Part shown: in pieces, positions 29,845 through 55,447 of the stretch
Layout of the letters: every line of letters begins with the position of its first letter
Numbering within the stretch: position 1 is the stretch's first letter
Source: Terriglobia bacterium
Lineage (GTDB): Bacteria > Acidobacteriota > Terriglobia > Bryobacterales > Bryobacteraceae
Assembly (NCBI GenBank): GCA_020073145.1
Contig: JAIQFS010000007.1
Location: forward strand, 62,001-126,000
Length of the DNA: 64,000 nucleotides
Direction: 5' to 3'
The notes under the pieces: generated by a model
Told to the model about the DNA's origin: nothing
What the model saw: only the letters and a program-made list of their open reading frames with translations
Database searches by the model: none
Position numbers and translations under genes: made by a program

Positions 29845-30603
29845 TCATGGGTGAAATGTGACGTTGGTCGACGCCTCGAAGTGCCGGTGATTCTTGTAGT
29901 CCACGGTGATGTGCCACAGATTCTCGCGCTGAAAGCCGCCGAATATTTCGACCGCAACCGGCAGCAGGTACGTGCCGTCTCCGGTTTTCACATAGTCCCA
30001 GGTCACCGTTTGTCTCAAGGGATCCGCGCCGAACCCTTTGGGGAACTCATTCGCTTCCTGCTCGAACTGGATTACGCTGCCTTCCGGATCGTTGATGAGG
30101 AATCGTCCCTTGCGCGCTGGATTGTATCGTTGTGTGAAGGAGAACAGGCTGTTCTTGACGGTGAAAAAACCGAAGCATCCGCCTGGTGGAGAAGAAAACC
30201 GGTAGGCCAATGCCGGTTTCCCACGCGCCTCTGCCCGCCCCTCGAAGTCAATCTTGGTGGGACAGTCCGGGCTAAACGCCTGCCTGAGTTCCTCGCCGAA
30301 CTGGACGCTCCAGTTGAAGCCGGACATCGCGCGTTGGTTCCATGGCTTGCCGTTCACCCTCATGTGCTGTCGGGAGAACCCGCCTCCCTGGACGCCGATC
30401 TCCGACTCAATGGTATCCACGTATTGCCACTGCGGCGGATCGGTGTGGCGGCTCTTGTAACGTACTGCCGTTTCATCCGCCAGGAAGTTCGGCAGCTTGG
30501 CGGCGCGCTCCAGATTCACCGCGCGCGCGTGCTCCAGCGCCGCGTCCTGGCTCCGCAGGCACAGCAGGCAGAGAAATGACGTGAACAGAACTCGTTTACT
30601 CAT
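29845..30603 (-). CDS. Hypothetical secreted protein of the ADOP operon
   Basis: 252 residues, unrecognised. The N-terminus (MSKRVLFTSFLCLLCLRSQ) is a signal peptide. The mature part is beta-rich with many aromatic residues (WDYVKTGDGTYLLPVAVEIFGG) in the way of acidobacterial exported hypotheticals. The start overlaps the end of the upstream ADOP permease by 8 bp, so it belongs to the PadR-ADOP-ADOP operon and may be its exported partner. Confidence 0.75.
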   Translation of the reverse strand: MSKRVLFTSFLCLLCLRSQDAALEHARAVNLERAAKLPNFLADETAVRYKSRHTDPPQWQYVDTIESEIGVQGGGFSRQHMRVNGKPWNQRAMSGFNWSVQFGEELRQAFSPDCPTKIDFEGRAEARGKPALAYRFSSPPGGCFGFFTVKNSLFSFTQRYNPARKGRFLINDPEGSVIQFEQEANEFPKGFGADPLRQTVTWDYVKTGDGTYLLPVAVEIFGGFQRENLWHITVDYKNHRHFEASTNVTFHP

Positions 30604-33292
30604 GACGCAGAGTCACCGCCGGATCCACTCGCAACGCGCGCCTTGCCGGAATGAGGCACGCCAGCGCCGTGATCGCCAGCATCAGGATCAGTTCCAGGTA
30701 CAGGCCCGGACTGCCGAATAGGGAATGGGCCGTCGTGTCCGGGAACACTTCCTGAGATCGCTCCCAGGTTGCGCCTGCCCAGCCCAAGACCACACCGGCC
30801 GCCAGTCCGAGCAACACGGGTCGTAGGCCTTGGTTCGCGAAGTTGCGCAGGATGGCGCGCGGCGTGGCGCCCAGCGCGATCCGGATACCGATCTCGCGGC
30901 TTCGCTGGCCCACCAGCAGCGCCGTTACCCCATAGATGCCGAGCCCGGCCAGCGCGAGTGAAAGCAGAATCAGAATCATCACCACCGCGGGAATCACGCG
31001 ATTGGGCACGCGCTGCGTGGCCGCCGGCCCTTCTTCCAGGCTGATCAGGTTCAAGCTCGGCAGCAGTGTCCGGTCCACGGATTCCACCGTCGACGTCACT
31101 GCCGCCAGAGCTTTCTGGCGATCGCCCTGGATACGAAACAGCAGGCCGCCCTCCGGGTCCGGCAAGTACACGTGGGCCGCATCCACCTGGGTGATATCGG
31201 AGAGGCGGACATCGGCGGCGATGCCCGCGACTTCGTATTCCCGGAACTTGTTGTGCCCGCCCAAATCCAATGAAAAGCGCTTGCCGATCGCATTTTCGCC
31301 GGGCCAGAACTGCCGCGCGGCGGATTCGCTGATCACCGCCACCGGCGCCCTGCGGTCCGCTTCCTGGCGCGTAAAAACGCGCCCTCGCACGATCCGGATG
31401 TTCAGCGTTTCGAAATACGAATCCGACGCATGGCTTGCCAGCGCCGGCCGGGTCACCTTCCCCACCATCACCGGCGAGGGCACCCTGTCGTAGAGATAGG
31501 GCACGTCGCCAAAGGCCACCCCACTCAACTCGGGGAGCCGCGCCAGCCGCTCGCGCAAACGCTGGTTGTTGGCCTCGGCCTGTGCCGGACTCTGGTCGGT
31601 CGTCAGCAGATAGGTGGTGCGCGTATCGAAGCCGAGGTTGGTGGCCCGCGCCTGCACCATGCTGGAGAGCAGATCGCCGGTGGCGGTCAACAACATCACC
31701 GACACCGCCACCTGCGCGCCCAGCAGCAGACCGCGGAGCCGCGACCGGCCCAGGCCCGCGCCGGTCCGGCCCGTTTCCTTGATTAAGGTGCTCAGACCCA
31801 CTCGCGTGGATCGCAGGGCGGGCGAGAGGCCAAAGAGGATGCCCGTAAACAGGCACAATGCTAGGCCGTAAAAGAGCACGTGAGAATCGGTACTGAGATC
31901 CACCTCGACGACGTTCAAGCCCATGCCGCTGAGAGAGCCGAATACCGAGATCCAAAAAAATCGGCCCGCCCACCGGGAGACCAGAATGCCTACTGCGCCG
32001 CCCAGCGTGGAAAGGAGAGTGCTCTCCATCAGCAACTGGCGCATGATGCGCCCGCGGCCCGCTCCCAGCGCCAGCCGGATGCCGATCTCGCCATGGCGCA
32101 CCGCGCCGCGCGCCAGCAACATGTTCGCTACGTTCGCGCAGGCCACCAGCAGCACCAGGCTGGTTACCATCCACAGCGCGTTTCCGCCACCGCGGTATCC
32201 GCTGAAGAACTGGGATTCGCCGAACGTGGTAGCGTTTTGCAGCGTGACTGCCTTGGTGCGATCGGCCTCGTGATGTCCGGATAGAAACTGATGAACCAGC
32301 AGATCGGTTTCCGCCTGTGCCCGGGCGCGCGTAATGCCCGGCCTCACGCGCGCCAGCAGTTCAAACCACGGAGGCGTGGCATCGCGCCATTGCTCGCGCC
32401 ACCCGGCGTAGGATGCCCGGGCCGTGGGCCACAGTTGCTCGATCATCGAAAGCGGTACCCAACCATCGGACTCCAAGGGAACCCGGTCCGTGCCCGTAAA
32501 CTGTTTCGGCGTGACGCCCACAACTGTGTACGCCATGCCGTCCAGCAGAATCGTCGCGCCGACGACGCCGGGATTTCCGTCCAGTTTCCGCTGCCAGAAT
32601 TTGTAACCCAGCACGATCACCGGGTTCGCACCCGGCGCGCGGTCTTCTTCCGGCAAAAGCGTGCGGCCGATCAGGGCGTGGACTCCCATCTCGGCGAAAT
32701 AGTTGCCCGACACCGGGTGAACCATGATGTGCTCCGGAACCGCGCGGCCGGCGATGGTCGCCAGCGCCGACGTCCCGCCGGCCTCAATCGTGATACCCGA
32801 GAATACGGTGCTGTGCTCGCGCAGATATCGGACTTCGGGGTACTCGAAGTTGTACTGATCATCGCCGCGCGGGCCACTCGCGAACCAGCGCTTGATCCGC
32901 ACCACCCGGCCGGCGTCGGCCACCGGCAGCGGCTTCCACAGGAGGCCGTTGTAGATGCCGAAGATAGTGGCGTTGGCGCCCATGCCGAGCCCCACCGCCG
33001 CCACGGCCACCAGCGTGAAGCCGGGGCTGCGCATCAGGTTGCGCGCGGCGTAGCGGACGTCTTTCACGAATTGCTCGATCCACACGAACGAGCGCGCCTC
33101 GCGATGCAGTTCCTTGCTGAGCGCGACGCCGCCGAACTCCCGGCGGGCGGCCCGTGCGGCCTCTTCCGGGGACATGCCACACCGCTCGAAATCGTCCCGC
33201 AGCAGCGCAAGATGCGCGTCCATCTCGCGGGCCATTTCCCGCTCGGCGCCGCCGCGAAACAAGTTCGCGAATCTGAAGAGGAGTCGTCGCAT
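30596..33292 (-). CDS. ADOP-type MacB-like ABC permease (copy 2)
   Basis: 898 residues with two FtsX/MacB core halves and about eight membrane helices in total. The N-terminus has the cytoplasmic ADOP leader (FRGGAEREMAREMDAHLALL, then a REFGGV segment and SFVWIEQFVKDVRYAARNL) and the C-terminus ends RRALRVDPAVTLRHE. ADOP permeases are abundant in acidobacteria and usually have no ATPase gene beside them, as here; their cargo is unknown. It follows its close paralog by 6 bp and overlaps the next gene by 8 bp. Confidence 0.9.
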   Translation of the reverse strand: MRRLLFRFANLFRGGAEREMAREMDAHLALLRDDFERCGMSPEEAARAARREFGGVALSKELHREARSFVWIEQFVKDVRYAARNLMRSPGFTLVAVAAVGLGMGANATIFGIYNGLLWKPLPVADAGRVVRIKRWFASGPRGDDQYNFEYPEVRYLREHSTVFSGITIEAGGTSALATIAGRAVPEHIMVHPVSGNYFAEMGVHALIGRTLLPEEDRAPGANPVIVLGYKFWQRKLDGNPGVVGATILLDGMAYTVVGVTPKQFTGTDRVPLESDGWVPLSMIEQLWPTARASYAGWREQWRDATPPWFELLARVRPGITRARAQAETDLLVHQFLSGHHEADRTKAVTLQNATTFGESQFFSGYRGGGNALWMVTSLVLLVACANVANMLLARGAVRHGEIGIRLALGAGRGRIMRQLLMESTLLSTLGGAVGILVSRWAGRFFWISVFGSLSGMGLNVVEVDLSTDSHVLFYGLALCLFTGILFGLSPALRSTRVGLSTLIKETGRTGAGLGRSRLRGLLLGAQVAVSVMLLTATGDLLSSMVQARATNLGFDTRTTYLLTTDQSPAQAEANNQRLRERLARLPELSGVAFGDVPYLYDRVPSPVMVGKVTRPALASHASDSYFETLNIRIVRGRVFTRQEADRRAPVAVISESAARQFWPGENAIGKRFSLDLGGHNKFREYEVAGIAADVRLSDITQVDAAHVYLPDPEGGLLFRIQGDRQKALAAVTSTVESVDRTLLPSLNLISLEEGPAATQRVPNRVIPAVVMILILLSLALAGLGIYGVTALLVGQRSREIGIRIALGATPRAILRNFANQGLRPVLLGLAAGVVLGWAGATWERSQEVFPDTTAHSLFGSPGLYLELILMLAITALACLIPARRALRVDPAVTLRHE

Positions 33293-33298
33293 CGGAGT

Positions 33299-36016
33299 TT
33301 ACTCGTGCCGCAGCGTGATCGCCGGATCCACCCGCAGCGCGCGCTTGGCCGGAGCAACGCACGCCAGTATGGCAACTGCGACCATCAGCACCAATTCCGC
33401 ATACAGGTTCGGATCGCCGAAGAGGCTGTGGACCATCGAGTCCGGAAACGGCGCCTGGGACTCTTCCCAGATAGTGAAAACGAACCCGAGCACGGTGCCG
33501 GCCGCGATTCCCAGGAAGACCGGCCGCATACACTGCGCCAACAGGCCGCCGATGAGCGCGCGCGCCGTCGCACCCAGCGCCACGCGGATTCCGATTTCGC
33601 GCGTCCGCTGCGTCACCAGATATGCCATCACTCCATAGATGCCGACTGCGGCCAACGTGAGTGAGAGCGCAACCAGGATTTCGCCGGCCAGCGCCAATCC
33701 CTGGACCGCCTCTCGCACCATCGCCACCGGCCCCTCTTCCAGGCTGATGAGATTCAATCCGGGCAGCAGCGCGCGGTCCACCGATTCCACGGCTGACCGC
33801 ACCGCCGCCAGTGCCTTGGTTCGATCGCCATGGATGCGGAACAGCACGCCGCCCTGATACTTTCCCTGCGGGCCGCCGGTTGGCAGATAGATGTGGGTCG
33901 CGTCAATTTCGGCGATGTCGGTAGAGTGGATGTCCTTGGCGATCCCGATTACTTCGAAGTCCGTGAAGTGGTTGTCGGATGCCAGATCCAGCGAGAAGCG
34001 CTTTCCCAGCGGATTTTCGTTCGGCCAGAAGTGCTTGGCCGTGGCCTCGCTGATCACGGCCAGCGGGGCGGCGCGGTCGGCTTCCTGCTGGGTGAAACTC
34101 CGGCCTCGCAACAACCGGATTCCCAGTGCCTCGAAATAGGCATCGGACGCGTAGCTGGCGAGCGCGGGCCGGTTCATTTTGCCCACCGCCATCGGACCCG
34201 TGAACCCGTTGCCCAGTAGCGGCGCGTCTCCAACGGCCACGCTGGCCAGTTCCGGCAGCGCGGCCAGGCGCTCGCGCAGACGTTGGTCGTTGGCCTTCGC
34301 CTTGCCGCGTTCGTTATCACGCATCATGAGAAAGGTGTTGCGCGCATCGAACCCGAGATCGGTGTTCTGCCGGATAAAGAGGGTCGACGCCAGGTCGCCG
34401 CTGGCCGACAGGAGCATCACCGCCGCCGTTACTTGCGTCCCCAGCAGAACGCTGCGGAGCCGCGATTGGCTCACACGGGCGCCGAACAACGATGCTTCTC
34501 TTTTGATGACGGCATTCAGGCTCACCCGCGTCAAGCGCACCGCCGGCGCAAGTCCGAATAGGAGGGCCGTCGCGAGCGCCAAAGCCAAGCCAAATGCCAT
34601 GACCCGGAAATCGGGGCTTAGATCCGGATCGATGAAGCTCGTGCGGAAGCCCTGGAAGGAGCGGCTGATCGCGAGCCACAACAGCCGGCTGGCCCACGTG
34701 GAAAGCAGCAGTCCCCCCGCCGCTCCGAGCACCGAGAGCATCAGGCTCTCGATCATCGCCTGACGCAGGATGCGGCCGCGGCCCGCCCCCAGTGCCATGC
34801 GAAGGCCAATTTCACTCTGCCGGGCGGCGCCGCGCGCCAGCAGCATGTTGGCCACATTCGCGCACGCCACTAGCAGCACCAGGCCGGTCATGAACCCGAG
34901 CATCAGGCCCGCGGTGCTGTAGCCATCGAAGAAGCCTTCGCCAATGTTGGTCGCTTTTACAACGGTGACCGCCGTGGTGCGATCCTTCTCGCGGTAGCGG
35001 GACAGAAATTGCCTTGCCAGCAGATCGGTTTCCGCCTGCGCTTTCGCGATTGAAACGCCATTTCGGACTCGCCCTAGCAACTCGAACCAGGGCGGAGTCG
35101 CGTCGCGCCACTGCTCCCGCCAGGAGTCGTCCGTCGTGCCGGCGGCCGGCGCCAACTGCTCGAACATGGAGAGCGGCGCCCAGAAATCCGTGGCGAATGG
35201 AAAACGGTCGGTCCCCGTGAACTTCCGCGGAGCCACGCCGATGATGTTGTAGGTCAATCCATCTAACTGGATGGTCCGGCCGATCACCCGCGGATCGCCG
35301 TTGTAGCTGCGCCGCCAGAACCGGTCGCTGAGCACGACTACGGGACTGGCGCCAGGCTCGCGGTCTTCTTCCGGCCCGAAGGTGCGGCCCAGAGCCGCGT
35401 TCACTCTCAGGGCGCCGAAGTAGTTGCCCGAGACTAGGTGCCCGGTCAGATGTTCCGGCGCGGATGTGCGGCTGACCGACGCCAACGCCGAGATTTCGCC
35501 GCTATCGGCTGTCAGGCCGGAGAACACGGTGCTGTGGGCAAGCAGGTACCGGTATTCTGGATACGCAAAGTTGTATTGAATCGAGTCGCGCGAGCCGTGC
35601 GCAAGCCAGCGCTTCACGCGGACCAGGCGGCCGGGATCGGCCACGGGAAGGGGCTTCAGCACAACCGTGTTATAGAGGCTGAAGAGAGTTGCATTCACGC
35701 CCAGGCCGATCGCCAGCGCGATCACCGCAACCGCGGTGAAGCCGGGATTGCCCCACAAATTGCGAGCGGCATAGCGCACGTCTTTGACGAACTGTTCCAC
35801 CCACACGAAAGAGCGCGCCTCGCGATGCAGTTCCTTGGTGAACTCGACGCCGCCGTAGGCGCGCCGGGCCGATAGCCTCGCCTCTGCCGGAAGCATACCG
35901 CGGCGTTCGAAATCTTCCTGCAACAAAGACAGGTGAGATTCCATCTCGCGCGTCATTTCGCGTTCTGCCCTGCGGCTGCCAAACAGATTTGCGAGTCTCA
36001 ACAGGAATCGGCGCAT
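33299..36016 (-). CDS. ADOP-type MacB-like ABC permease (copy 1)
   Basis: 905 residues, the same architecture as the permease that follows it, with matching leader (SRRAEREMTREMESHLSLLQ), the REARSFVWVEQFVKDVRYAARNL hinge and the RRALRVDPAITLRHE tail. Long stretches are similar between the two, so they arose by tandem duplication. It starts 3 bp after the PadR regulator stop and is probably co-transcribed with it from the TTGACA promoter at 36388-36416. No ATP-binding subunit is encoded nearby. Confidence 0.9.
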   Translation of the reverse strand: MRRFLLRLANLFGSRRAEREMTREMESHLSLLQEDFERRGMLPAEARLSARRAYGGVEFTKELHREARSFVWVEQFVKDVRYAARNLWGNPGFTAVAVIALAIGLGVNATLFSLYNTVVLKPLPVADPGRLVRVKRWLAHGSRDSIQYNFAYPEYRYLLAHSTVFSGLTADSGEISALASVSRTSAPEHLTGHLVSGNYFGALRVNAALGRTFGPEEDREPGASPVVVLSDRFWRRSYNGDPRVIGRTIQLDGLTYNIIGVAPRKFTGTDRFPFATDFWAPLSMFEQLAPAAGTTDDSWREQWRDATPPWFELLGRVRNGVSIAKAQAETDLLARQFLSRYREKDRTTAVTVVKATNIGEGFFDGYSTAGLMLGFMTGLVLLVACANVANMLLARGAARQSEIGLRMALGAGRGRILRQAMIESLMLSVLGAAGGLLLSTWASRLLWLAISRSFQGFRTSFIDPDLSPDFRVMAFGLALALATALLFGLAPAVRLTRVSLNAVIKREASLFGARVSQSRLRSVLLGTQVTAAVMLLSASGDLASTLFIRQNTDLGFDARNTFLMMRDNERGKAKANDQRLRERLAALPELASVAVGDAPLLGNGFTGPMAVGKMNRPALASYASDAYFEALGIRLLRGRSFTQQEADRAAPLAVISEATAKHFWPNENPLGKRFSLDLASDNHFTDFEVIGIAKDIHSTDIAEIDATHIYLPTGGPQGKYQGGVLFRIHGDRTKALAAVRSAVESVDRALLPGLNLISLEEGPVAMVREAVQGLALAGEILVALSLTLAAVGIYGVMAYLVTQRTREIGIRVALGATARALIGGLLAQCMRPVFLGIAAGTVLGFVFTIWEESQAPFPDSMVHSLFGDPNLYAELVLMVAVAILACVAPAKRALRVDPAITLRHE

Positions 36017-43039: not shown

Positions 43040-43354
43040 GTGGCGTGTCAGAACCTGGCGCGTGGTTCCGTGATTGACGTCGAAACCAAGAGCCGCCGCT
43101 ACCGGATTGAGTGTCTCGGGGGACGCGCGATTCGGATTTCGGGTCATCCGGAGTACTGCCCGGATCCGGTATCCGCGCACCTGCACGGCTCGGTTGACCG
43201 GGACGGCGTCTTGCAACTGGGCATCATTGGAAAAGGCCGCCGGCTGATGTTTCTGCTCGAAGACCGTCGCCCAGTAACCACGTCGCGCGTGGTTCGTGTT
43301 TGCGTCAATCAACCCAAAATGGTTTCCTCCCCAACATCTCCCAGCATGCACTAA
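43040..43354 (+). CDS. Small conserved-looking hypothetical protein
   Basis: 104 codons from GTG 43040. The core VIDVETKSRRYRIECLGG, then IRISGHPEYCPDPV and GIIGKGRRLMF with PVTTSRV, has the alternating hydrophobic strands of a small beta-barrel and codon usage that fits coding DNA. The GHPEYCP segment, with His and Cys two or three residues apart, might bind a metal. I do not recognise the family with certainty. No ribosome site is obvious. A related C-terminal fragment follows at 43431-43622. Confidence 0.5.
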   Translation: MACQNLARGSVIDVETKSRRYRIECLGGRAIRISGHPEYCPDPVSAHLHGSVDRDGVLQLGIIGKGRRLMFLLEDRRPVTTSRVVRVCVNQPKMVSSPTSPSMH

Positions 43355-43430
43355 GGTTCGGGTCGAACGGCCGTTGGCATTGTGGGAGGACTAAGGCCGG
43401 CCGGCTAGCGCCAGAAGACGGGTCACTGTT

Positions 43431-43622
43431 GTGAAGGCTCCGAACCAGCGCACCATGATCGTGCATACGGACGGCGGAGACCGAACAACGACCTGCGACG
43501 GCAGCCATCGATGGATGGCGGCGCCTGCCGCGGACAAGTCATTTTCTGTGATCGCGTATAGCAGCGTTTGCGTCGACCAACCGAAGACGGTTCGGCCGAA
43601 AACAACTGGCAGCGTTCACTGA
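43431..43622 (+). pseudogene. Possible degenerate copy of the 43040 gene (C-terminal fragment)
   Basis: The last codons read SSVCVDQPKTVRPKTTGSVH, which align with RVCVNQPKMVSSPTSPSMH at the end of the 43040 protein. The DNA over that stretch (gtttgcgtc..caacc.aa.a.ggtt) is similar too. The rest of this 63-codon frame does not match, so this is probably the remnant of a tandem duplication. Seen by eye only; the aligned stretch is short. Confidence 0.25.
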
Positions 43623-43754
43623 CCTCCTTCTTGAAGGACCAGGGGGTTTTGTAGGCGGCGATCGGCGGGTGAGGGCCTTCCCGCGGACCGTGCAACTGGA
43701 GATGCACCAGTTCCTTGGTCTGGCTTAGGGTCGTGAAATAGCACGTTCCCGGGA
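43623..43754. other. Intergenic region with an inverted repeat upstream of the sigma-54 promoter
   Basis: No gene seen. GTGCA (43690-43694) and TGCAC (43703-43707) form a 5-bp inverted repeat centred about 80 nt before the predicted start site of the sigma-54 promoter, a usual place for an enhancer-binding protein. The arms are short, so this is only suggestive. Confidence 0.3.
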
Positions 43755-43769
43755 TGGCACTCAATTTGC
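43755..43769 (+). promoter_or_regulatory. Consensus sigma-54 (RpoN) promoter
   Basis: TGGCAC (43755-43760), 5 nt, TTGC (43766-43769) is a full match to the -24/-12 consensus TGGCAC-N5-TTGC. The predicted start site is about 43780, only 6 nt before the ATG at 43786. Orientation and distance both fit the small gene downstream. No enhancer-binding protein gene is in the window. Confidence 0.7.
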
Positions 43770-43785
43770 CTGAATCTCACGGAAC

Positions 43786-44028
43786 ATGGATGATTATGTC
43801 AACGAGCAGATCATGCTGTATTTTGGGCATGACGTCGCGAAAATGAGGTTGCTCGGAATCACGAGATACGCGATTACGATCTACATCCGGTGCGTCGAAA
43901 GTGGTCAGCCCAAGGAATCAGCCATCAACGCCTTGCTCCAAGGCAGGACGCTCAACCCGGAGCAGGTGGAGTTCGTCAGGTCTGTGCTCGATCGACTGCC
44001 GATGAGAGCCAAGGCCGCCGGAGGCTGA
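43786..44028 (+). CDS. Hypothetical 80-residue protein under sigma-54 control
   Basis: Unrecognised. The peptide is soluble and largely helical: EQIMLYFGHDVAKMRLLGIT, then a second helix with IYIRCVESGQPKESAINALL and a third with NPEQVEFVRSVLDRL. It has no signal peptide and one Cys. A consensus sigma-54 promoter ends 16 nt upstream of the ATG, giving a leader of only about 6 nt. A CBS-domain gene follows 99 bp later and could share the transcript. Confidence 0.6.
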   Translation: MDDYVNEQIMLYFGHDVAKMRLLGITRYAITIYIRCVESGQPKESAINALLQGRTLNPEQVEFVRSVLDRLPMRAKAAGG

Positions 44029-44127
44029 GACCCAAGAATACCGCGCTATCGGAGTTTCGGCGGACGAGTGAACTTAGATTGGCGGCCTGAACCGGATGGA
44101 GGGGGCGGTCAAGAAAGGAGGGATACG

Positions 44128-44637
44128 ATGAAGTGTGAAGAAATCATGATCAGCGAGTTGTTATGGTGTGTACCAACCGATACAGTGGAGACCGCGGCGA
44201 AGATGATGAAGACGGCGAACATCGATGTTGTGCCGGTTTGCGAAGGCCGTCAGAATGAGCGTCCGGTCGGCATCGTTACGGATCACGAGATCGTACTCCG
44301 CGTGGTGGCCGATGGACTTGATGCCACCAAAATGACGCTCGAGGCTGTAATGACTCGGGAGCCGGTTACTTGTTACGGAGAGGACGATCTGGACACAGCA
44401 CTGGATGCCATGGAGCGGAATCAAGTACAGCGAATTCTAGTCGTCGGCCAAGGAGGCCGCCTAGCCGGTGTCCTCACCCAAGCGGACGTGCTTCTCTGGA
44501 CTGGCGAACCAACGAGGATCGTCGAATTGATCAGAAAAGCGGCTCAAGGACGTCGGGCCAGCCAATCTGGCGCCAAGAGCAAGGCTGAAGAATCCGGCTT
44601 GCCGAAGGTGCGCCACGGCGGCGGCTCCTTTTCTTAA
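44128..44637 (+). CDS. CBS-domain pair protein
   Basis: 169 residues with two CBS motifs in tandem: CBS1 includes WCVPTDTVETAAKMMKTANI and PVGIVTDHEIVLRVV, and CBS2 includes VTCYGEDDLDTALDAMERNQ and RLAGVLTQADVLLW. The pair should form a Bateman module that binds adenine nucleotides or another ligand. The C-terminus is a basic helix and a low-complexity tail. An AAAGGAGGG site is 6 nt before the ATG at 44128. It may be on the sigma-54 transcript that starts at about 43780. Confidence 0.85.
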   Translation: MKCEEIMISELLWCVPTDTVETAAKMMKTANIDVVPVCEGRQNERPVGIVTDHEIVLRVVADGLDATKMTLEAVMTREPVTCYGEDDLDTALDAMERNQVQRILVVGQGGRLAGVLTQADVLLWTGEPTRIVELIRKAAQGRRASQSGAKSKAEESGLPKVRHGGGSFS

Positions 44638-44983
44638 GCCGCGCGATTCTCCTGGAACCACTGGTGCCATACCCGGCACGAGGCGGGGGATCACTCCGTC
44701 TAGAAGCAGCGCGACGCGCGTCCCGGTTTCGAGCACCCGGATTTGCCCCCATTCTCCGCTTACCGGTCGCCTCCCCTCACGCTCCCATCCTGCAGGAGTA
44801 CGCAAACCCCAAATCGTCATCGAGGATGAGGACCGTATTCATTGTGGTTTCTGCAGGGGCCAAGGGGGCCCGCACAAGCCAACCCAGGCACCAAACTCTC
44901 CGTATAGAATGTGGCGCGTCCGTCATGGATTGCAACCGATGCTCCCATCGTTTGGTAACACAATTGCCTCCCAAACGCCTGAT
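44638..44983. other. 346-bp gap with a receiver-like remnant
   Basis: Between the CBS and PilZ genes. Apart from the fragment at 44777-44842 I see no gene. TATAGA at 44902-44907 could be a -10 box for the PilZ gene. Confidence 0.4.
44777..44842 (-). pseudogene. Probable N-terminal remnant of a response regulator
   Basis: On the minus strand the ATG at 44842 opens MNTVLILDDDLGF and then runs into AYSCRMGA and a stop after 21 codons. MNTVLILDDD is a textbook first strand and acidic cluster of a receiver domain. Nothing recognisable follows in the other frames, so it looks like a truncated or recombined gene. The similarity covers only about 13 residues. Confidence 0.35.
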
Positions 44984-45463
44984 ATGTCACCCACCACACA
45001 ACAGCAACCCGACAAACAGAGAAGCATACGCCGCAGTCAGCGCCGCTATCCAATCCGCGTTGATCTGAAATACCGGATTCTCGACGGCGACCAAACGGTG
45101 AGCAGGGGCTCAGGACGGAGTGTGAACCTCTCGAGCAGTGGAATCCTGTTTGAAGCCGACGGTGCCATAAAGCCGGGCGAGCTGATCGAGCTAGCCCTGA
45201 CATGGCCGGCCCGGCTTAACGACAAGGTAGGATTGACGTTGCTCATCGTTGCCCGCACGCTGCGCGAGGATTGGAACGGCATCGCCGCAGTGAATTTGCG
45301 CTACGAGTTTCGCACTCGGGCTCTCTGGCGGCCCGCTCCACTTGAGGCTTCGACGGCTATTAGCCGTACGATTGCTTACGCGTCATCCGAAACAAGGCCG
45401 AGCGGCACGCCCGGTTTTCCGGACGTCGCGTTCCGGCCGATGCAGAGAATGGTCTCTCCGTAA
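44984..45463 (+). CDS. PilZ domain protein (2 of 3)
   Basis: 159 residues from ATG 44984; in-frame ATGs at 44939 and 44909 could add 15 or 25 residues. The PilZ signature is intact: SIRRSQRRYPIRVDLKYRI and SVNLSSSGILFEADG give the RxxxR and NxSxxG contacts for c-di-GMP, and the LRYEFR tail motif is shared in form with the other two. The 45-residue C-terminal extension is unusual and not recognised. If the -10 box at 44902-44907 is used, 44909 is too close to it and 44939 or 44984 is preferred. Confidence 0.75.
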   Translation: MSPTTQQQPDKQRSIRRSQRRYPIRVDLKYRILDGDQTVSRGSGRSVNLSSSGILFEADGAIKPGELIELALTWPARLNDKVGLTLLIVARTLREDWNGIAAVNLRYEFRTRALWRPAPLEASTAISRTIAYASSETRPSGTPGFPDVAFRPMQRMVSP

Positions 45464-45669
45464 CGCTGAGGTGCCCGGTACGAAGAGAGACCGGGGTATG
45501 CGCGATGGGGCACTGAACCCTTGCCTGTGACAGCAAAGGTCCACGCGGCTCGGGTCCAAATTGTGCAAGGAACCAATCCAAAAAATGGGAAATCGATGGA
45601 AAACTGCTCAGTGCGTTTGCTCCCCAGCAGACGAAATGACGCCCCGGACAACTTCGGCAGGACAAATTC
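45464..45669. other. Intergenic region before the NRPS gene
   Basis: 206 bases of lower GC. I find no clear promoter. A sigma-54-like sequence at about 45509-45524 has the wrong spacing (see the rejected list). Confidence 0.4.
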
Positions 45670-48402
45670 ATGAGCGGGGTTAATCGGCCGATCCACGTGG
45701 GGAGGCCGCGAACTGGTAAGGACAGTACGAGCCAAGACCGCGCGCAGGCAATTTCGAGGCTTACCGAGGAGGCCCGCCATCGAATTCTGGTCGAGTGGAA
45801 CGAAACCGCTAGGGACTATCCTCGGGAGCGCTCCTTACACGAATTCATCGAGGACCAAGTTGACCGAACGCCGAACGCGCCAGCACTCGTCTTTGGGTGC
45901 ACCCAGCTTTCCTATCAAGAACTGAATGTCCGAGCTAACCGGCTAGCGCATTACCTCCGAAGATTAGGCGTAGGGCCGGAGGTTCTGGTGGGGGTATACG
46001 CAGGACGGTCGGTGGAAATGATTGTGGCGCTACTCGGGGTGATGAAGGCCGGCGGTGCTTATCTGCCGCTGGATCCCGAGTGTCCGAGAGAGCGGCTGGC
46101 CGCCTTGCTTGAGGATTCCCGGCCCCTGGTTGTGATTGTTCAAGACGAGTTGAGGGGAGCGCTTCCCGAACATGGAAGCAGTACCGTGTTTCTCAACGGG
46201 GATAGCCCGCTGTTCCAGGGCGAACGGGAAAGCAATCCACCGGTAATCACGCACGGCCAGAATCTGGCGTATGCGATGTACACGTCGGGTTCGACGGGTA
46301 TGCCGAAATGCGTTCTCAACGTCCATGAAGCCATTGTGAATCGGCTGCTGTGGATGCAAGACACGTACCGGCTGGATTCGAGGGATCGAGTTCTTCAGAA
46401 GACTCCTTACACCTTTGACGTTTCCGTCTGGGAGTTTTTTTGGCCGCTCATGGCGGGGGCCTGCCTGGTCGTGGCGCGACCCGGAGGTCATAAGGACCCG
46501 AACTACCTGGTTGACGAAATCATCAGGCAAGGGATCACAGTGATTCACTTCGTGCCGTCCATGTTTCACGTGTTTCTGGAAGCTCCGGGGATCGAAGGCT
46601 GCGCCGGCCTGCGCCATATCTTCTGTAGCGGCGAAGCACTACCGGTGGCGTTGCGAGAGAGGTTTTTCAGGAGGCTCAAGGGTCAACTCCATAATCTGTA
46701 TGGTCCGACGGAAGCGGCGGTAGACGTGACGGCATGGACATGCGATCCCACGGGTCCTTCCTCGATCGTGCCCATCGGAAAGCCCATTTGGAATACCCGG
46801 ATCTACATTCTGGACAGTAACCTGGAGCCAGCGCCTCCGGGAGCGGCCGGCGAACTGCACATTGGAGGAGTCGCGCTGGCCCGCGGTTATTTGAATCGGC
46901 CCGAGCTAACCGCGCAGAAGTTCATCCCCGACCCTTTTAGCAAGGAGCCGGGGGCGCGTTTGTTCAAGACCGGGGACGAGGCGCGGTTTCTGCCGGACGG
47001 CAATATCGAGTACTTGGGCCGAATCGACCACCAGGTCAAAATTCATGGCATTCGGATCGAGCCAGGAGAAATCGAATCGGTGCTGACCGGGCATCCCTCT
47101 ATCCGCCAAGCCGTCGTCATCGCCGATGAGGAGCGACCGGGGCAGAAGCGGCTGGTGGCCTATCTTGTGGCACGGCGGAAGCCCGTCTCCCTCAGCGAAC
47201 TGCGGGAGTCGCTGCGAGCCAAATTGCCGGAGTCGATGATACCGGCCGCGTTTGTGGTGCTCGACGCACTGCCGTTGACGGTGAGCGGGAAATTGGACCG
47301 CAAGAGCTTGCCGCGTCCTTGTTCCAACGAGGGCATGGCTAGCCGTGTACCGGCCTCGCCGCGGAATTCGCTGGAGCGGACGCTTTGCAGAATCTGGGAA
47401 GAGGTTCTGAACGTGCGATCGGTCGACATCGACGATGGTTTCAGCGACCTGGGAGGCGACTCGTTGGCGGCCGCCTGTTTGTTTGTCCGGATCCACCAAA
47501 TCTACGGGAAGAACCTGCAGGCGGTCAATCTGATGAACGTGACGACGGTCCGGGCCATGGCCGAGGTGATTCGTTCCGAAAACAGCGGTTCCGCAGCGAA
47601 GTCACTGGTGACACTGCGCGGCGAAGGATCATTGCCACCGCTATTTCTTGTTTCGGGGATTCTGGGCCACGTGGTCAATTTTTTCAGTTTAGCGGTGCAT
47701 CTCGGACCGGAGCAACCTACATACGCGCTGCAGCCGCCCGGTATCGACTTGTCGGTACCGTACCTGACCCGGGTCGAGGACATCGCCGCCCACTACATTC
47801 GCGAAATCAAATTCCGACAGCCATCCGCGCCCTATTACCTGGCGGGCTACTCGTTTGGGGGAATGATTGTCTTTGAAATGGCGCGGCAACTTCTGGCTCG
47901 GGGAGATCGTGTCGCGATCGCCGCGCTGCTGGACGCTCCGGAGTGGCGATACGAAAGGCGCATGAAACGGATCATGCGCTTCAACCGGGTTCTCTTTGGG
48001 CCTCGCCGGCTCACGTACCTAACGGAAGCGGTCCAATCCCGCTGGCCGGGCGGAATCCACAAGATGCACGACCGTCTTCGCCATCGCGCGCCGCAGAACC
48101 GGTTCACGCTGGAAGAAGCCAGCCGGCTGGCGGCCAACCGGTATGTTCCCCGAATCTATCCCGGGCGATTGACACTTCTGCGAACGAGCCCCGACGGGGC
48201 GCTGGTCCCCGGCGATCCCTTTCTTGGGTGGGGTCAGCTGGCAACGGGTGGAGTCGAGGTTCACGAGATTCCCGGCGGCCACTTCACAATCACGGACGAG
48301 CCATACGTTGCCATTCTGGCTCACAAGCTCAGAGAGTGTCTGGACCGGGCCCGGCCGGCGGGGTTGCCCAGTATCGCGCGAGTGGCCGGCGCCGGCGGTT
48401 GA
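45670..48402 (+). CDS. Single-module NRPS: adenylation (serine code) - carrier - thioesterase
   Basis: 910 residues, no signal peptide. A-domain about 55-550: YTSGSTGMPK (A3), LYGPTEAAVD (A5), LFKTGDEARF (A7), GRIDHQVKIHGIRIEPGEIE (A8) and SGKLDRK (A10). Specificity residues D250, V251, W254, H293, F318, S320, L343, V351, D352 and K541 spell DVWHFSLVDK, the code of EntF for L-serine. Carrier domain about 565-635 with S598 in LGGDS for phosphopantetheine. Type I thioesterase about 655-890: S728 in GYSFGG, D755 and H871 form the triad. The first about 50 residues look like the linker that normally follows a condensation domain (LTEEARHRILVEWNETARDY), but no C domain, partner NRPS, PPTase or transporter is encoded nearby. 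GC is lower than in the neighbours. A weak AGGAC site precedes the ATG. Confidence 0.93.
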   Translation: MSGVNRPIHVGRPRTGKDSTSQDRAQAISRLTEEARHRILVEWNETARDYPRERSLHEFIEDQVDRTPNAPALVFGCTQLSYQELNVRANRLAHYLRRLGVGPEVLVGVYAGRSVEMIVALLGVMKAGGAYLPLDPECPRERLAALLEDSRPLVVIVQDELRGALPEHGSSTVFLNGDSPLFQGERESNPPVITHGQNLAYAMYTSGSTGMPKCVLNVHEAIVNRLLWMQDTYRLDSRDRVLQKTPYTFDVSVWEFFWPLMAGACLVVARPGGHKDPNYLVDEIIRQGITVIHFVPSMFHVFLEAPGIEGCAGLRHIFCSGEALPVALRERFFRRLKGQLHNLYGPTEAAVDVTAWTCDPTGPSSIVPIGKPIWNTRIYILDSNLEPAPPGAAGELHIGGVALARGYLNRPELTAQKFIPDPFSKEPGARLFKTGDEARFLPDGNIEYLGRIDHQVKIHGIRIEPGEIESVLTGHPSIRQAVVIADEERPGQKRLVAYLVARRKPVSLSELRESLRAKLPESMIPAAFVVLDALPLTVSGKLDRKSLPRPCSNEGMASRVPASPRNSLERTLCRIWEEVLNVRSVDIDDGFSDLGGDSLAAACLFVRIHQIYGKNLQAVNLMNVTTVRAMAEVIRSENSGSAAKSLVTLRGEGSLPPLFLVSGILGHVVNFFSLAVHLGPEQPTYALQPPGIDLSVPYLTRVEDIAAHYIREIKFRQPSAPYYLAGYSFGGMIVFEMARQLLARGDRVAIAALLDAPEWRYERRMKRIMRFNRVLFGPRRLTYLTEAVQSRWPGGIHKMHDRLRHRAPQNRFTLEEASRLAANRYVPRIYPGRLTLLRTSPDGALVPGDPFLGWGQLATGGVEVHEIPGGHFTITDEPYVAILAHKLRECLDRARPAGLPSIARVAGAGG

Positions 48403-49487: not shown

Positions 49488-51389
49488 TCAGTTTTGCGGA
49501 GGTCCGGCGTTCCCGGGGATCTTCGACTCCGCCGAGACGCGGCCGGTCAGGGCTTCGTCGAGAACGACGTGGTTCCTCTCGAGAGTTTCTCCGAGCACCT
49601 GGTCGAGGGCGACGCGGGCGTGGACAAACGCAGACTGGGCAGCGATCTCGGAGACTCGGGCGGCCTGGAGGGTGCGCTGGTCGACGACGATGTCGTTGAA
49701 AGTGGCGGTGCCCGACGCGAACTTTTTGCGGTCGGCTTCCAGCAGCTGCTCCTGCAAAGTCCGGGTGTCCCGGGCGGCCGAGTAGCGCGAGCGGGCCTGG
49801 CGCAGCGCGCTCATGCGCGCCGAGACATCCACGACGATGGCGTTCTCATTCCTCTGATTGCTCACCTGCGATTGGCGGTACTGCAACTGGTCGATGCCGT
49901 AATCGCCCTGCGCGCGGCGATTGTGTAAGGACGCCGAGAACGAGGCGCCGGCGATGTTATTCGGAAAATCGCGGCGGAACACCTGGCCGAGGGCGGTGCC
50001 GTAGCCACCGACGAAAGACGCATTGGGCGCCCCGCAGCAGTTGTTGTACTTCGGATTGACTTCACCGGCCACGCCGCGATTGTAGGTCTGCACGTAGGTA
50101 GACAGGTTGGGCCGCAGGGGGTTTTCGGTTCCACTCAAGGCCAACTGGGCGGTCTGGTCGCGGAACTTGGAGACGGCCACATCGGGGCGCTTGGCCATCG
50201 CGGTGTGGACCAGTTGGCGCATGGGAGGGAGATCGTCGGTATCGGGCACTTCGATGCGGTCGAGCGGAACGATGCCGGCCGCTTCGAGCTCCGGGTCTTC
50301 GGTGCGGCTAATGGCCTCCTTCAGGAGGGCGGTGCGCTGGCCGGCGGTGTTCTCGGCAATGCTGAGGTCCTGCCGCGTGCGCGCCAGTTCGGCCTCGGCG
50401 CGCAAGAGCTCGACGCGAGGCAGGGCTTCAATGGCGATTTCCTTCTGGGTGTCGCTATAGAACTGCTGGGCGTCGTTGAGAGCCTGCTGCCGCGCTTTGA
50501 GCTCGTCGTTGGCGCTCACCAGGTCCCAGTAAGAGTTGAGAACGGAAGCTACCAGGTCGACCAATTGCGAGCGAAACACGTCTCGCGAGGCGCCGGTATT
50601 GATTTTGGCGATGCGGATCAAGCGGCTATTGAGGGCGACTCCGAAGCCCTGGAGTAGGGGCTGGCTGTAGGTGAAATCGATGTGGGGCCCGACGGCGGGA
50701 TTCAACTGATCGGTGGCCGCGTTCTCTTTCAGATACTGCTCGTAATCGCGGAACTGGATGGAGCCGCCGGTCAACAGGCCGAGATTGAGCACGGTATTGT
50801 AATTGTGGACCGACTGGACCAGGGCGTTGGTCTGGCTGAGCGTGGTGTTGGCAAACGGTTGGGTGAGGTGGCCGAAGGTGGTGGTGTCCTGCAGAAAGGG
50901 ATCGAGCTGGGGGGTGACTTGTCCAATTTGTTGAATGGAGGCCGAGCCGCCGGAAGCTCCGCCGCCGCCACCACCTCCGCCGCCCAAGCCGGCGCTCTGG
51001 GTGCTGCCATTGACGCCGACGCCGGCGTTGACGTTGGACACTTGGGCGCTGGCGCTGGGCACACCGCGAATGGGGCCGCCGGCCCGGGCGCGCTCGAGGC
51101 CGGATTGCGCGAGGAGGGGCCCGTAACGAGCGATTTCCAGATTCAGATTGTTCTCGATGGCCAAGGCGATGGCGTCTTGCGCGGACAGATAGAGCTGTCC
51201 GGCGCGAATCAGGCTATGCAGCCGGGAGGAGTTGCCCAACCGGACGGGAGGAATGACCGGCGCTGCATAATCGCGGAGGGGAACGGGCAGCAGGGGCTTC
51301 TGAACCTGCAGGGGCTGACCCTGCGCCGGGGCTTGGAGGAGCAGGCAGGCTCCGGCGAGGAGAATGGCACTCCATTTTCGAGGACTCAT
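49488..51389 (-). CDS. TolC-family outer-membrane protein, long form (copy 2)
   Basis: 633 residues, longer than the usual 420-500. Signal peptide at residues 1-24. The first helix reads DAIALAIENNLNLEIARYGP, typical of the TolC/OEP repeat. A Gly-rich insert (about 130-150, eight or more Gly in a row) and a NNCCGAPN motif with two Cys (about residue 447) are also present in the preceding paralog. It ends in the usual RVALDQVLGETL helix and a Pro-rich tail. No RND pump, MFP or ABC gene is adjacent. The start overlaps the stop of copy 1 (ATGA). Confidence 0.85.
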   Translation of the reverse strand: MSPRKWSAILLAGACLLLQAPAQGQPLQVQKPLLPVPLRDYAAPVIPPVRLGNSSRLHSLIRAGQLYLSAQDAIALAIENNLNLEIARYGPLLAQSGLERARAGGPIRGVPSASAQVSNVNAGVGVNGSTQSAGLGGGGGGGGGASGGSASIQQIGQVTPQLDPFLQDTTTFGHLTQPFANTTLSQTNALVQSVHNYNTVLNLGLLTGGSIQFRDYEQYLKENAATDQLNPAVGPHIDFTYSQPLLQGFGVALNSRLIRIAKINTGASRDVFRSQLVDLVASVLNSYWDLVSANDELKARQQALNDAQQFYSDTQKEIAIEALPRVELLRAEAELARTRQDLSIAENTAGQRTALLKEAISRTEDPELEAAGIVPLDRIEVPDTDDLPPMRQLVHTAMAKRPDVAVSKFRDQTAQLALSGTENPLRPNLSTYVQTYNRGVAGEVNPKYNNCCGAPNASFVGGYGTALGQVFRRDFPNNIAGASFSASLHNRRAQGDYGIDQLQYRQSQVSNQRNENAIVVDVSARMSALRQARSRYSAARDTRTLQEQLLEADRKKFASGTATFNDIVVDQRTLQAARVSEIAAQSAFVHARVALDQVLGETLERNHVVLDEALTGRVSAESKIPGNAGPPQN

Positions 51390-53335
51390 CGCAGAACCTC
51401 CGAGCGGAGCATAGAAAGCCCGGGCGCGGCGGGCTTCACGACGGCCGGCGCGGGATCGGGCAGCGACGATTCGCGCTGGACGCGCCCTTGCGCGGCCTCG
51501 TCAATCGAAATATGGTTCACATCGAGCGTTCGTCCCAAGGCCATGTCGAACCCGATGCGAGCATGCGTGTAGTTCGCCAGGGCTTGCACTTCGCCATCTT
51601 CGCCGGCGGCGAGATCGCGCTGGGCCTGAATCACGAGGGCGACGGTGGAGACGCCGAACTGAAAGCGGCGCTGCTCGTTGGCGAGACTCTGCTCGGCGAG
51701 CTTGCGAGTGTCCACGGCGGTCTGGTAGCGGGCGCGGGCCTGTTGCAAGCCGATGGTCGCGGTCTTGACGTCGACGCGCACCTGATTGATGGCGCGCTGC
51801 ATCTGCAGTTCGCTCTGCCGAAGCTGAAGCTCGTCAGTGACGTAGTCGGCTTGTGCGGAGCGGTTGCGGATGGGAATGGTGAGGGAGACGCCGGCCGAAT
51901 AATCGGGAAAATTGCGGCGGAACATCTGGGAGAGGGCGGTTCCAGCTCCGCCGATGAAGAAGGAGTTGGGAGCGCCGCAGCAATTGTTGTAGAGGGGATT
52001 GGCCGGGCCCGCCAGGCCGTGGTTGGTGAGCTCGGCAAAGGCCTGGAGCGAAGGCAGGAGCCCATTGCGATCGCCGCGCGCGAGGATCTGGTTGCTCTGG
52101 ATATCGATCTTGGCCCGGACGATTTCCTGGCGGTTGGCCAAGGCCTCCTGGATCAAATCGGGCACGGGCCGGATCTCCTCGGCGGCGGGCACTTCGACGC
52201 GGTCGAGAGGCACGATGTGGACATCGTCGAGCGAGGAATTCTCGGTAGAGTTGCGGCTGATGGCGTTCTTGAGGACAATCTCCTGTTGCTCCACGTTGGT
52301 CTGGGCGAAGAGGAGGTCCTCCTTAGTGGCGGAAACTTCGGCGGCGGCGCGCGTCACTTCAACCGCCGGCAGGGCACCGATCTCGACCTGCTTTTGATTG
52401 CCTTCATACAACTGCTGGGCGGTCTTGAGCGCTTCCTCCTTGATGCGGACGGCATCGTTGAAGCTGACGAGATCCCAATAGAGATTGAGCGCGGCGGAAA
52501 CCGTGGTGGCAACCTGCAGTTTGAATTGCACGTCGCTCACCTTCATGTTGTTCTTGGCGACCCGGATGTAGCGATCATTGACGCCGCGGCTGAGCCCCTG
52601 GAGCAGGTTCTGGGCGACCTGGAAATCGAGATAGCCGCTCAGCGAGGGATTGAAGAGAGGGGAGGCGCTGTTGAGGAAACTGCGGGAACTGACGGCGGTG
52701 AACTGCATGGAGGTGCCGGTCACGAACGCCTGCGAATACCCGAAATTGAAGACGCGGTAGCTGTTGATGAGGGCAGTGGTTTGATTCAGGAAGGTGTTGG
52801 TTTGGGGCTGGGTGAGGTGGCCGAATTGGGCGTTGGCGAAAACACCGGGGTCCAGATTCGGGGGGTTGGGACCGATGGAGCTGACCACGCCGCCGCCGGA
52901 GCCGATGCCGGCGCCGCCCGCCAGGCCGTTGGCGTTGGTGCTCACGCCGGCGGTACTGACACTGGTGGGGCCGGGAATCACGGGCGTGTCCACCTGGCGC
53001 AGATAGCCGCCGCCTTGGGCGCGCCGTAGAACTTCGCGCGCGAGCACGGGGCTATAGCGCTGGACAGCGATATCGAGATTGTTCTCGAGGACGAGCGCGA
53101 TGACGTCCTGGACCGACAGGTAGAGGCTGCCGTTGCGCACCAGCGTTTGCAGGCGCGGCGAATTGGTCAGCTTAGCCGGGGCGACGATACGCCTCTCCAG
53201 ATGGAAGGGCGCGAGCACACGGCCCGCCACCGGCGGAGGCGGGGGAGTCTGGATGGAGACCTCGCTGGATTGCGCGAACAGCGGGCAGCCCCAAGCCAGG
53301 CAGACGAGAGACACGAGAGGGCGGTGGCGATTCAT
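51386..53335 (-). CDS. TolC-family outer-membrane protein, long form (copy 1)
   Basis: About 649 residues. Signal peptide (RPLVSLVCLAWGCPLFAQ). DVIALVLENNLDIAVQRYSPVL starts the first OEP repeat; a Gly-rich loop GLAGGAGIGSGGGVVSS and NNCCGAPN recur as in copy 2. The helical hairpins of the second half (LYWDLVSFNDAVRIKEEAL, LAEQSLANEQRRFQFG) are typical. Tandem copies 1 and 2 are coupled by ATGA. The start is taken at ATG 53335, which begins the signal peptide; 53359-53353 is an alternative ATG. Export partner and substrate are unknown. Confidence 0.85.
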   Translation of the reverse strand: MNRHRPLVSLVCLAWGCPLFAQSSEVSIQTPPPPPVAGRVLAPFHLERRIVAPAKLTNSPRLQTLVRNGSLYLSVQDVIALVLENNLDIAVQRYSPVLAREVLRRAQGGGYLRQVDTPVIPGPTSVSTAGVSTNANGLAGGAGIGSGGGVVSSIGPNPPNLDPGVFANAQFGHLTQPQTNTFLNQTTALINSYRVFNFGYSQAFVTGTSMQFTAVSSRSFLNSASPLFNPSLSGYLDFQVAQNLLQGLSRGVNDRYIRVAKNNMKVSDVQFKLQVATTVSAALNLYWDLVSFNDAVRIKEEALKTAQQLYEGNQKQVEIGALPAVEVTRAAAEVSATKEDLLFAQTNVEQQEIVLKNAISRNSTENSSLDDVHIVPLDRVEVPAAEEIRPVPDLIQEALANRQEIVRAKIDIQSNQILARGDRNGLLPSLQAFAELTNHGLAGPANPLYNNCCGAPNSFFIGGAGTALSQMFRRNFPDYSAGVSLTIPIRNRSAQADYVTDELQLRQSELQMQRAINQVRVDVKTATIGLQQARARYQTAVDTRKLAEQSLANEQRRFQFGVSTVALVIQAQRDLAAGEDGEVQALANYTHARIGFDMALGRTLDVNHISIDEAAQGRVQRESSLPDPAPAVVKPAAPGLSMLRSEVLR

Positions 53336-53792
53336 GGTAGTCGGTTCGGCCATTTCGGGTTAAGGCCGGAGGCGGAGAGGTGCAATTTCCCTTCCGGGGG
53401 TGGGTGAAGAGCCTGCAAGCGAACGGTGGGCCCAGGGGGGAGGGGACTGTCCGTTTTTGAGAACGGGTGTCCGGTTTTGCGACGTAGGGGCGCGCGGGGA
53501 CCAGAGTAGCAACGGGGCCGAGAGCAGGTCCGCCGCGCGTTTTCGAGCACGGCCGCGATCGCTGCGGCCAGAGCCGGGACTTACGCAGAGAGAACCCAGA
53601 TGCCTTCCTGCTCGCATCAGTGGTTTCCTTGTTCTGAAACCCAGGAATTCAAAGTCTCGAAGCGGACCGAATGATGCAAGGCAAGGGCGGCGCGGGCGCG
53701 GCCGCAAGGGGCGGCGGTGTGCGGGGGCGGCGGACCTGAAGAAGGACTTGAGAACGTACAGGGAGCTGGCGGGCTGTAGTCTAATAAAGAGC
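53336..53792. other. 457-bp gap without a gene
   Basis: Between the divergent TolC and copy-D genes. A plus-strand frame is open through much of it but its content is Arg/Gly-rich and unlike a protein. I found no certain promoter; TCTAAT at 53780-53785 lies 7 nt before the ATG at 53793 and is a possible leaderless -10 box. Confidence 0.4.
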
Positions 53793-54613: not shown

Positions 54614-55051
54614 TCACTTAGGAGCGCGTGAGGCTGAAAGGACCGGGGCAGAGGCGTAAGGCGCTACGGCCGTGCCAGGCGCTCGGCGGGCTAAGACGAT
54701 CCCCACGGTCCGGAACTCGTGATGCCGGAAGCGGACCGCCAGGCGGCGGCCCTCGGTGCGCACGATGTCACCGACGGCCTTGAGTTGAAGGGGTGCCACG
54801 TTCCGCAACAGGACGGGCCAGGCAATGGAGAGCTCGATGCTCAATCCGACTCGCAACTCACGGTCGGTTTGGAAAAGCAGGCCTCCGCTACTGAGATCAA
54901 TGGTGGTTCCGGTTCCGGTATCCAACGTCTCGCGGCCGTGTGCCAGCTTCCAGCTCACGCCGAGTGCCATCGGGTAACGCCGGTGGAGTCTCCGGCTAGC
55001 CGACGCGATTCCCGGGATGCTTTTCGAGGGCGCGGCCTTCCGTGGTTCCAT
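54614..55051 (-). CDS. PilZ domain protein (3 of 3)
   Basis: 145 residues from ATG 55051 (a GGGAGG site lies 6-7 nt upstream). SRRLHRRYPMALGVSWKL carries the Arg-rich switch and TIDLSSGGLLFQTD the DxSxxG motif. FRHHEFR near the end recalls FKHYEFR and LRYEFR of the other two PilZ proteins. It should bind c-di-GMP. An Arg is missing at one of the two usual switch positions after HRRYP, so affinity may be lower. Confidence 0.8.
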   Translation of the reverse strand: MEPRKAAPSKSIPGIASASRRLHRRYPMALGVSWKLAHGRETLDTGTGTTIDLSSGGLLFQTDRELRVGLSIELSIAWPVLLRNVAPLQLKAVGDIVRTEGRRLAVRFRHHEFRTVGIVLARRAPGTAVAPYASAPVLSASRAPK

Positions 55052-55447
55052 ACTTGACCTCCCAAGTCCACCCTGAACCAACCGCGATGCAGGGCCGAAT
55101 GCGATGGTGTGCGAGGAGCTAAATCATTTCAGAGTTCCTGGACTGATTATCACCTTACTGGATCTGCGGGGGCAGAGCCGCGCGTACCAGTATCGGGCCC
55201 GATCCGTACGGGTACGGGAGGTGCAGGGGGCTATGCGCCGCGGGGAGGGGGACGGGGGATCCGGTGACTCCCCGAGTGAGTGGCGGCGATTGGTAGTGGG
55301 CTGAAGGGCCAAAGCCAACTTAGCACGGTCGCCACTTCGAATCCGGGCCCCGCCAGAGCGAATGCCGTGACAACGGTTAGCGCCAGCGTTACACCCAGGC
55401 TGCCAGAGCCTCGTTTCCTATCAGGTCCTTTCCAATCCGTCCAAAAT
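55052..55447. other. 396-bp gap, possible small ORF on the minus strand
   Basis: On the minus strand just after the phosphatase gene a frame reads SLGVTLALTVVTAFALAGPGF and then TVLSWLWPF, a plausible membrane helix. It has no good start codon of its own and would overlap the end of the phosphatase. I do not call it a gene. Confidence 0.3.

Follow-up and report, generated by a model that had tools for sequence, protein, structure and literature searches.

The 64-kb stretch of DNA analysed here (the window, 62–126 kb of a 160.7-kb contig) encodes a complete A-PCP-TE protein with the serine code of EntF, which we consider, on balance, to be a serine-activating NRPS module, deprived of its C domain and now an orphan in this Bryobacterales genome. 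The module is real and its parts are ordinary; its isolation is mildly unusual. We counted in favour of an orphaned module the absence of partner proteins, a retained C-to-A linker, the nesting of the A domain among C-containing modules, the branch length, the GC3 and the absence of the gene from genus-mates. Counted against it were the intact frame and catalytic residues, a rate excess that depends on the outgroup, the frequency of similarly altered sequences, a low GC3 shared with genes upstream and the fact that AcpS may modify a PCP. Judged from its anatomy, the A domain would activate L-Ser by adenylation and transfer it to the phosphopantetheine arm on Ser598; Ser728 of the TE would then release the loaded serine. 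Because the genome holds no C domain, Sfp-type PPTase or MbtH partner, most likely no peptide is made, and the PCP would be largely apo or the protein would at best load and hydrolyse serine.

Domain layout and serine code

A single ORF with an ATG start runs for 910 codons without an internal stop (Table 1). A Pfam search placed AMP-binding, AMP-binding_C, PP-binding and Thioesterase domains in this order, as the original prediction had it, and returned no substantial match beyond these four; the chain of A, PCP and TE without C is that of a C-less A-PCP-TE NRPS-like protein.

We aligned the protein to the actual sequence of EntF from E. coli K-12. The code residues D250, V251, W254, H293, F318, S320, L343, V351, D352 and K541 correspond to EntF D648, V649, W652, H691, F720, S722, L745, V753, D754 and K952 and are identical at 10/10 positions. 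The third and fourth positions (254–293) are 39 residues apart, the same spacing as in EntF (652–691) and GrsA (239–278). The EntF code and the GrsA-like spacing, both read from the sequence beforehand, are thereby borne out, and the Stachelhaus serine code, together with equivalents of the invariant D235 and K517, predicts serine as the substrate; at least nine of the ten code positions are common to 62 of 259 other A domains. The same alignment places Ser598 opposite EntF Ser1006 and S728/D755/H871 opposite S1138/D1165/H1271, in agreement with the carrier serine and full TE triad proposed earlier. A structure model of the TE domain has a mean pLDDT of 85, and the top solved matches in a fold search are NRPS thioesterases, e.g. 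NocB; EntF was also matched.

The protein thus shares with EntF (enterobactin synthase component F, C-A-PCP-TE) the ten-residue code, the A-PCP-TE order and a C-terminal type I TE with a Ser-Asp-His triad. Identity, however, is only 46% (A), 24% (PCP) and 26% (TE), and EntF carries a C domain and has the MbtH gene ybdZ next to it; both are lacking here. By its sequence, the protein would work like the A-PCP-TE part of EntF, yet it does not count as an EntF-type module, which is defined by a C domain N-terminal to A that is absent here.

Table 1. Features of the A-PCP-TE gene, in window coordinates
Feature	Position	Strand	Basis or remark
Shine-Dalgarno-like AGGA, sequence GGCAGGACAAATTCATG	45658..45661	+	7 bases 5' of ATG
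A-PCP-TE protein, 910 aa, frame unbroken	45670..48402	+	ORF and Pfam
Residues 1–23, without recognisable homology	45670..45738	+	C-A linker homology starts at about residue 24–31
C-to-A linker, residues 24–51, AQAISRLTEEARHRILVEWNETARDYP; module apparently formerly behind a C domain	45739..45822	+	phmmer and tblastn
Adenylation domain, code DVWHFSLVDK	45823..47313	+	64% identity to Bryobacterales serine module; Pfam AMP-binding 61–408 (E 2.5e-91), AMP-binding_C 467–541
PCP domain, residues 571–634 (PP-binding), carrier Ser598 within GGDSL	47380..47571	+	Pfam and EntF alignment
Thioesterase domain, residues 657–876, triad Ser728/Asp755/His871	47638..48297	+	Pfam, EntF alignment, NRPS-TE fold

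Loss of the condensation domain and origin of the parts

The protein was said to lack a C domain and to begin in the linker that follows one, and Pfam, phmmer and tblastn all agree. Matches of phmmer to C-A modules begin at residue 16–28, and residues from about 24–31 to 51 match the linker behind the C domain of canonical modules. When about 200 C-domain-plus-linker fragments were compared with positions 43300–45830 by tblastn, the linker was the sole real match; upstream of the ORF (43300–45670) no C-domain remnant was found, matches beyond the linker being at chance level only. Searches of 45464–45760 against the sequences of relatives by blastn and blastx gave no convincing match. The C-less A-PCP-TE proteins of relatives, in contrast, begin straight at the A domain without a C-A linker, and because our protein keeps this linker, it appears to derive from a C-containing module.

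The A-domain tree nests the protein among C-containing Acidobacteriota serine modules (98/76, within 100/87 and 100/96). Serine C-A-PCP modules from Bryobacterales and other Acidobacteriota (L012/G044, L014 and G038:C10) have A domains of the same clade at 61–64% identity, the highest value, 64%, being to L012, which lies on the same contig as G044:C391, the contig by which the lineage is assigned to Bryobacterales. Unlike our protein, these modules follow a C domain, and the PCP of L012 is followed by another C domain, not by a TE. Identity to the L012 module drops from about residue 500 and is 28–38% over the PCP. The PCP-TE part lacks a close relative, the best identities being at most about 40%, or about 39% for the TE by itself. 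In the TE tree the TE falls into an Acidobacteriota clade (98/96) among Bryobacterales NRPS TEs, with branching inside this group unresolved. This clade mixes C-less and C-containing proteins, which suggests that C-less forms have more than one origin.

Nine further C-less A-PCP-TE proteins (L123–L130 and L168) occur in eight other related genomes, and the architecture is therefore ordinary in this group: the lone A-PCP-TE arrangement first described is real but less special than suggested. These proteins have the same domain order and TEs of the same broad clade; they differ from ours in their codes, which are other or non-amino-acid ones, and most of their genomes have a second PPTase. One of them, in G012, has a gene for an Sfp-type PPTase at a distance of about 1.5 kb. 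The second A-PCP-TE of G012 (L125, G012:C1:4882000–4900000) is a separate ORF with a C-domain ORF just upstream, that is, a split module.

The code DVWHFSLVDK also occurs in C-A-PCP-TE serine synthetases of another genus (G038, G246 and G247), which are 41–46% identical over the shared length. These have a C domain, and their A domain falls into a different clade from ours, by which a shared origin of the A domain with their operons is rejected. An A-PCP gene and a P450 gene lie directly upstream in two of the three genomes and only a P450 tail in the third; G246 and G247 carry an Sfp-type PPTase family gene upstream. In a related genus, loci L122 (7494–14859) and L188 (3413 onward) hold the operon as A-PCP (DAWALGNVVK), P450 and C-A-PCP-TE (serine), and in L188 the last operon gene is followed by additional segments (two frames, to 11188) that match the TE end of C-A-PCP-TE proteins.

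Searching four genus-mates with the full-length protein gave no match at E 1e-60 in three; in G001, the fourth, the only match was at 41%, to an A domain with a different code. This locus (L121, G001:C324, 8527–11321) comprises an A domain (DAWSLGNVVK), a truncated PCP and a P450 that is split across three frames, the decayed half of the A-PCP / P450 / C-A-PCP-TE operon that is intact in G038 and G247. It suggests NRPS loss in this genus, or possibly a sequencing error in a draft genome instead. In a plasmid collection, the full-length hits among the best matches reached only 43–45% and were in Mycetohabitans.

Partner machinery and possible activity

We searched the whole host assembly (6.3 Mb, 88 contigs, completeness estimated at 100%) for partners of the module. 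The condensation domain (PF00668) had no match on any contig, and one A domain, that of our protein, passes the amino-acid-adenylation cut-off, so that the check for a C domain elsewhere, proposed at the outset, yielded neither a C domain nor a further full-strength amino-acid A domain. No MbtH protein was found in the genome. The corresponding check for a PPTase returned one gene of this family, a 125-aa AcpS that lacks the N-terminal domain of the Sfp type. The genome has four carrier domains, the other three being small carrier proteins; on contig C21 of the host genome, two small carrier-protein genes (L163 and L164) stand beside genes for FabF-like and KAS III-like ketosynthases, as judged by sequence. 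A small siderophore fragment, one of the products first proposed, is not supported, given that there is no partner and no C domain.

Among 60 relatives, with the PPTase family counted as PF01648 genes, all 14 genomes in which a strong C domain was found carry at least two such genes, as do 10 of the 46 in which it was not (Fisher p about 1e-7). The C-less A-PCP-TE genomes G038, G042 and G234 have one PPTase-family gene only, the assemblies of G042 and G234 being <90% complete. Enzymes of the AcpS type are described as restricted to the carrier proteins of fatty-acid synthesis (PMC5605751), and priming of our PCP by the host AcpS is therefore doubtful.

It is nevertheless possible that the protein functions as a free-standing enzyme, in which AcpS would prime Ser598, the A domain would load serine and the TE would transfer the seryl group in trans or release it as an ester, dimer or lactone. 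Frame and motifs are intact, the TE fold is well formed, and the nine C-less proteins in relatives, one of them close to an Sfp-type PPTase gene, are consistent with such a function. A precedent exists in PacP of pacidamycin biosynthesis, an A-T-TE0 tridomain protein without C, like ours, whose aminoacyl group is passed to a free carrier (PMC8748450); its TE, however, is described as inactive and its partner carrier PacH is present, unlike in our case. The lack of an Sfp PPTase, of MbtH and of any biosynthetic neighbour argues against this function, as do the presence of at least two PPTases in most relatives with a C-less A-PCP-TE and the absence of the gene from genus-mates. The full version, a working serine A-PCP-TE that is primed by AcpS, needs neither C domain nor MbtH and hands seryl groups to some acceptor, seems unlikely.

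Less probable still is that the protein belongs to a split NRPS as one subunit, with a C domain, PPTase or partner encoded elsewhere that escaped the assembly or the family models. The split module of G012 offers a parallel and the host assembly is in 88 contigs, but at its estimated completeness no PF00668 match was obtained by a search that succeeded in 18 of the 60 relatives, and the flanks hold no biosynthetic genes.

Intactness, recency and neighbourhood

The A-tree branch of our protein is 0.54 long, versus 0.22 for its sister. A Tajima test with L014 as outgroup counted 72 unique changes versus 36 (p 5e-4); p varies between 0.001 and 0.18 with other outgroups, and when L014 itself is the comparison the excess frequently fails to reach significance. 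Of 76 near-invariant A/PCP columns, four carry a changed residue (G214C, Y432F, R459H and F592S); 8% of other A-PCP sequences show as many such changes. At the sequence level, the long branch and the altered residues are hints of relaxation, no more. GC3 is 0.70, versus 0.80–0.83 in four large window genes; values of 0.61–0.67 also occur in two short upstream genes (CBS and PilZ), and GC3 therefore does not single out the NRPS gene.

A long-dead pseudogene would account for the longer branch and the few altered conserved residues, but the gene has no stops, frameshifts or lost catalytic residues, whereas in a neutral-drift simulation 5% protein change produced a stop in 93% of runs, with 2.4 stops on average. 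An old loss is refuted, and the very small probability that we leave to a pseudogene covers only a very recent loss. The unbroken frame, set against the simulated stops, points to a gene that was probably under selection until recently, in the host or in a donor. The relic considered in the original prediction holds up as far as an orphaned gene is concerned; decay long ago is contradicted by the frame and the simulation. An assembly artefact, either a chimera or an upstream C domain lost by the assembly error considered earlier, would fit the abrupt start of homology at the C-A linker but is hardly credible for a gene that sits well inside its contig (at about 107.7 of 160.7 kb), with its own ATG and AGGA, an in-frame stop 11 codons 5' of the ATG and a C domain on no other contig.

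We return to the orphaned module as the preferred reading. The longer branch, the four altered residues and the absent priming and condensation machinery suggest that the module was orphaned recently, possibly as a piece of a cluster gained by lateral transfer, and a recent loss of its partners would explain why the gene is still intact. Its contribution to any pathway would be little or none. It would then illustrate the way in which soil Acidobacteriota shed and reshuffle NRPS modules. It also offers a clean test case for the priming and use of an NRPS module in an AcpS-only genome. An active protein would have practical use as a small serine loader that needs no MbtH; an inactive one warns against counting lone NRPS matches as biosynthetic capacity.

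The flanks of the gene contain no biosynthetic genes, flanking repeats or insertion-sequence ends, and a promoter and terminator scan stayed at chance level. PilZ family members at 44909–45463 and 54614–55081 have 15 matches in the host genome, and with that many copies PilZ was useless as a neighbourhood anchor. The window was said to contain no PPTase, partner NRPS or export gene, which is correct for the first two; export-type genes are present, namely two OEP/TolC-like genes (49488–53353) and two MacB-like permease genes (30596–36016). Nothing was seen that links them to the A-PCP-TE gene, and a search for a conserved neighbourhood found the OEP/MacB-like locus in G001 without an NRPS. There, the pair orthologous to the tandem OEP genes adjoins a MacB-like permease gene, whereas in the window about 14 kb separate the OEP genes from the MacB-like ones.
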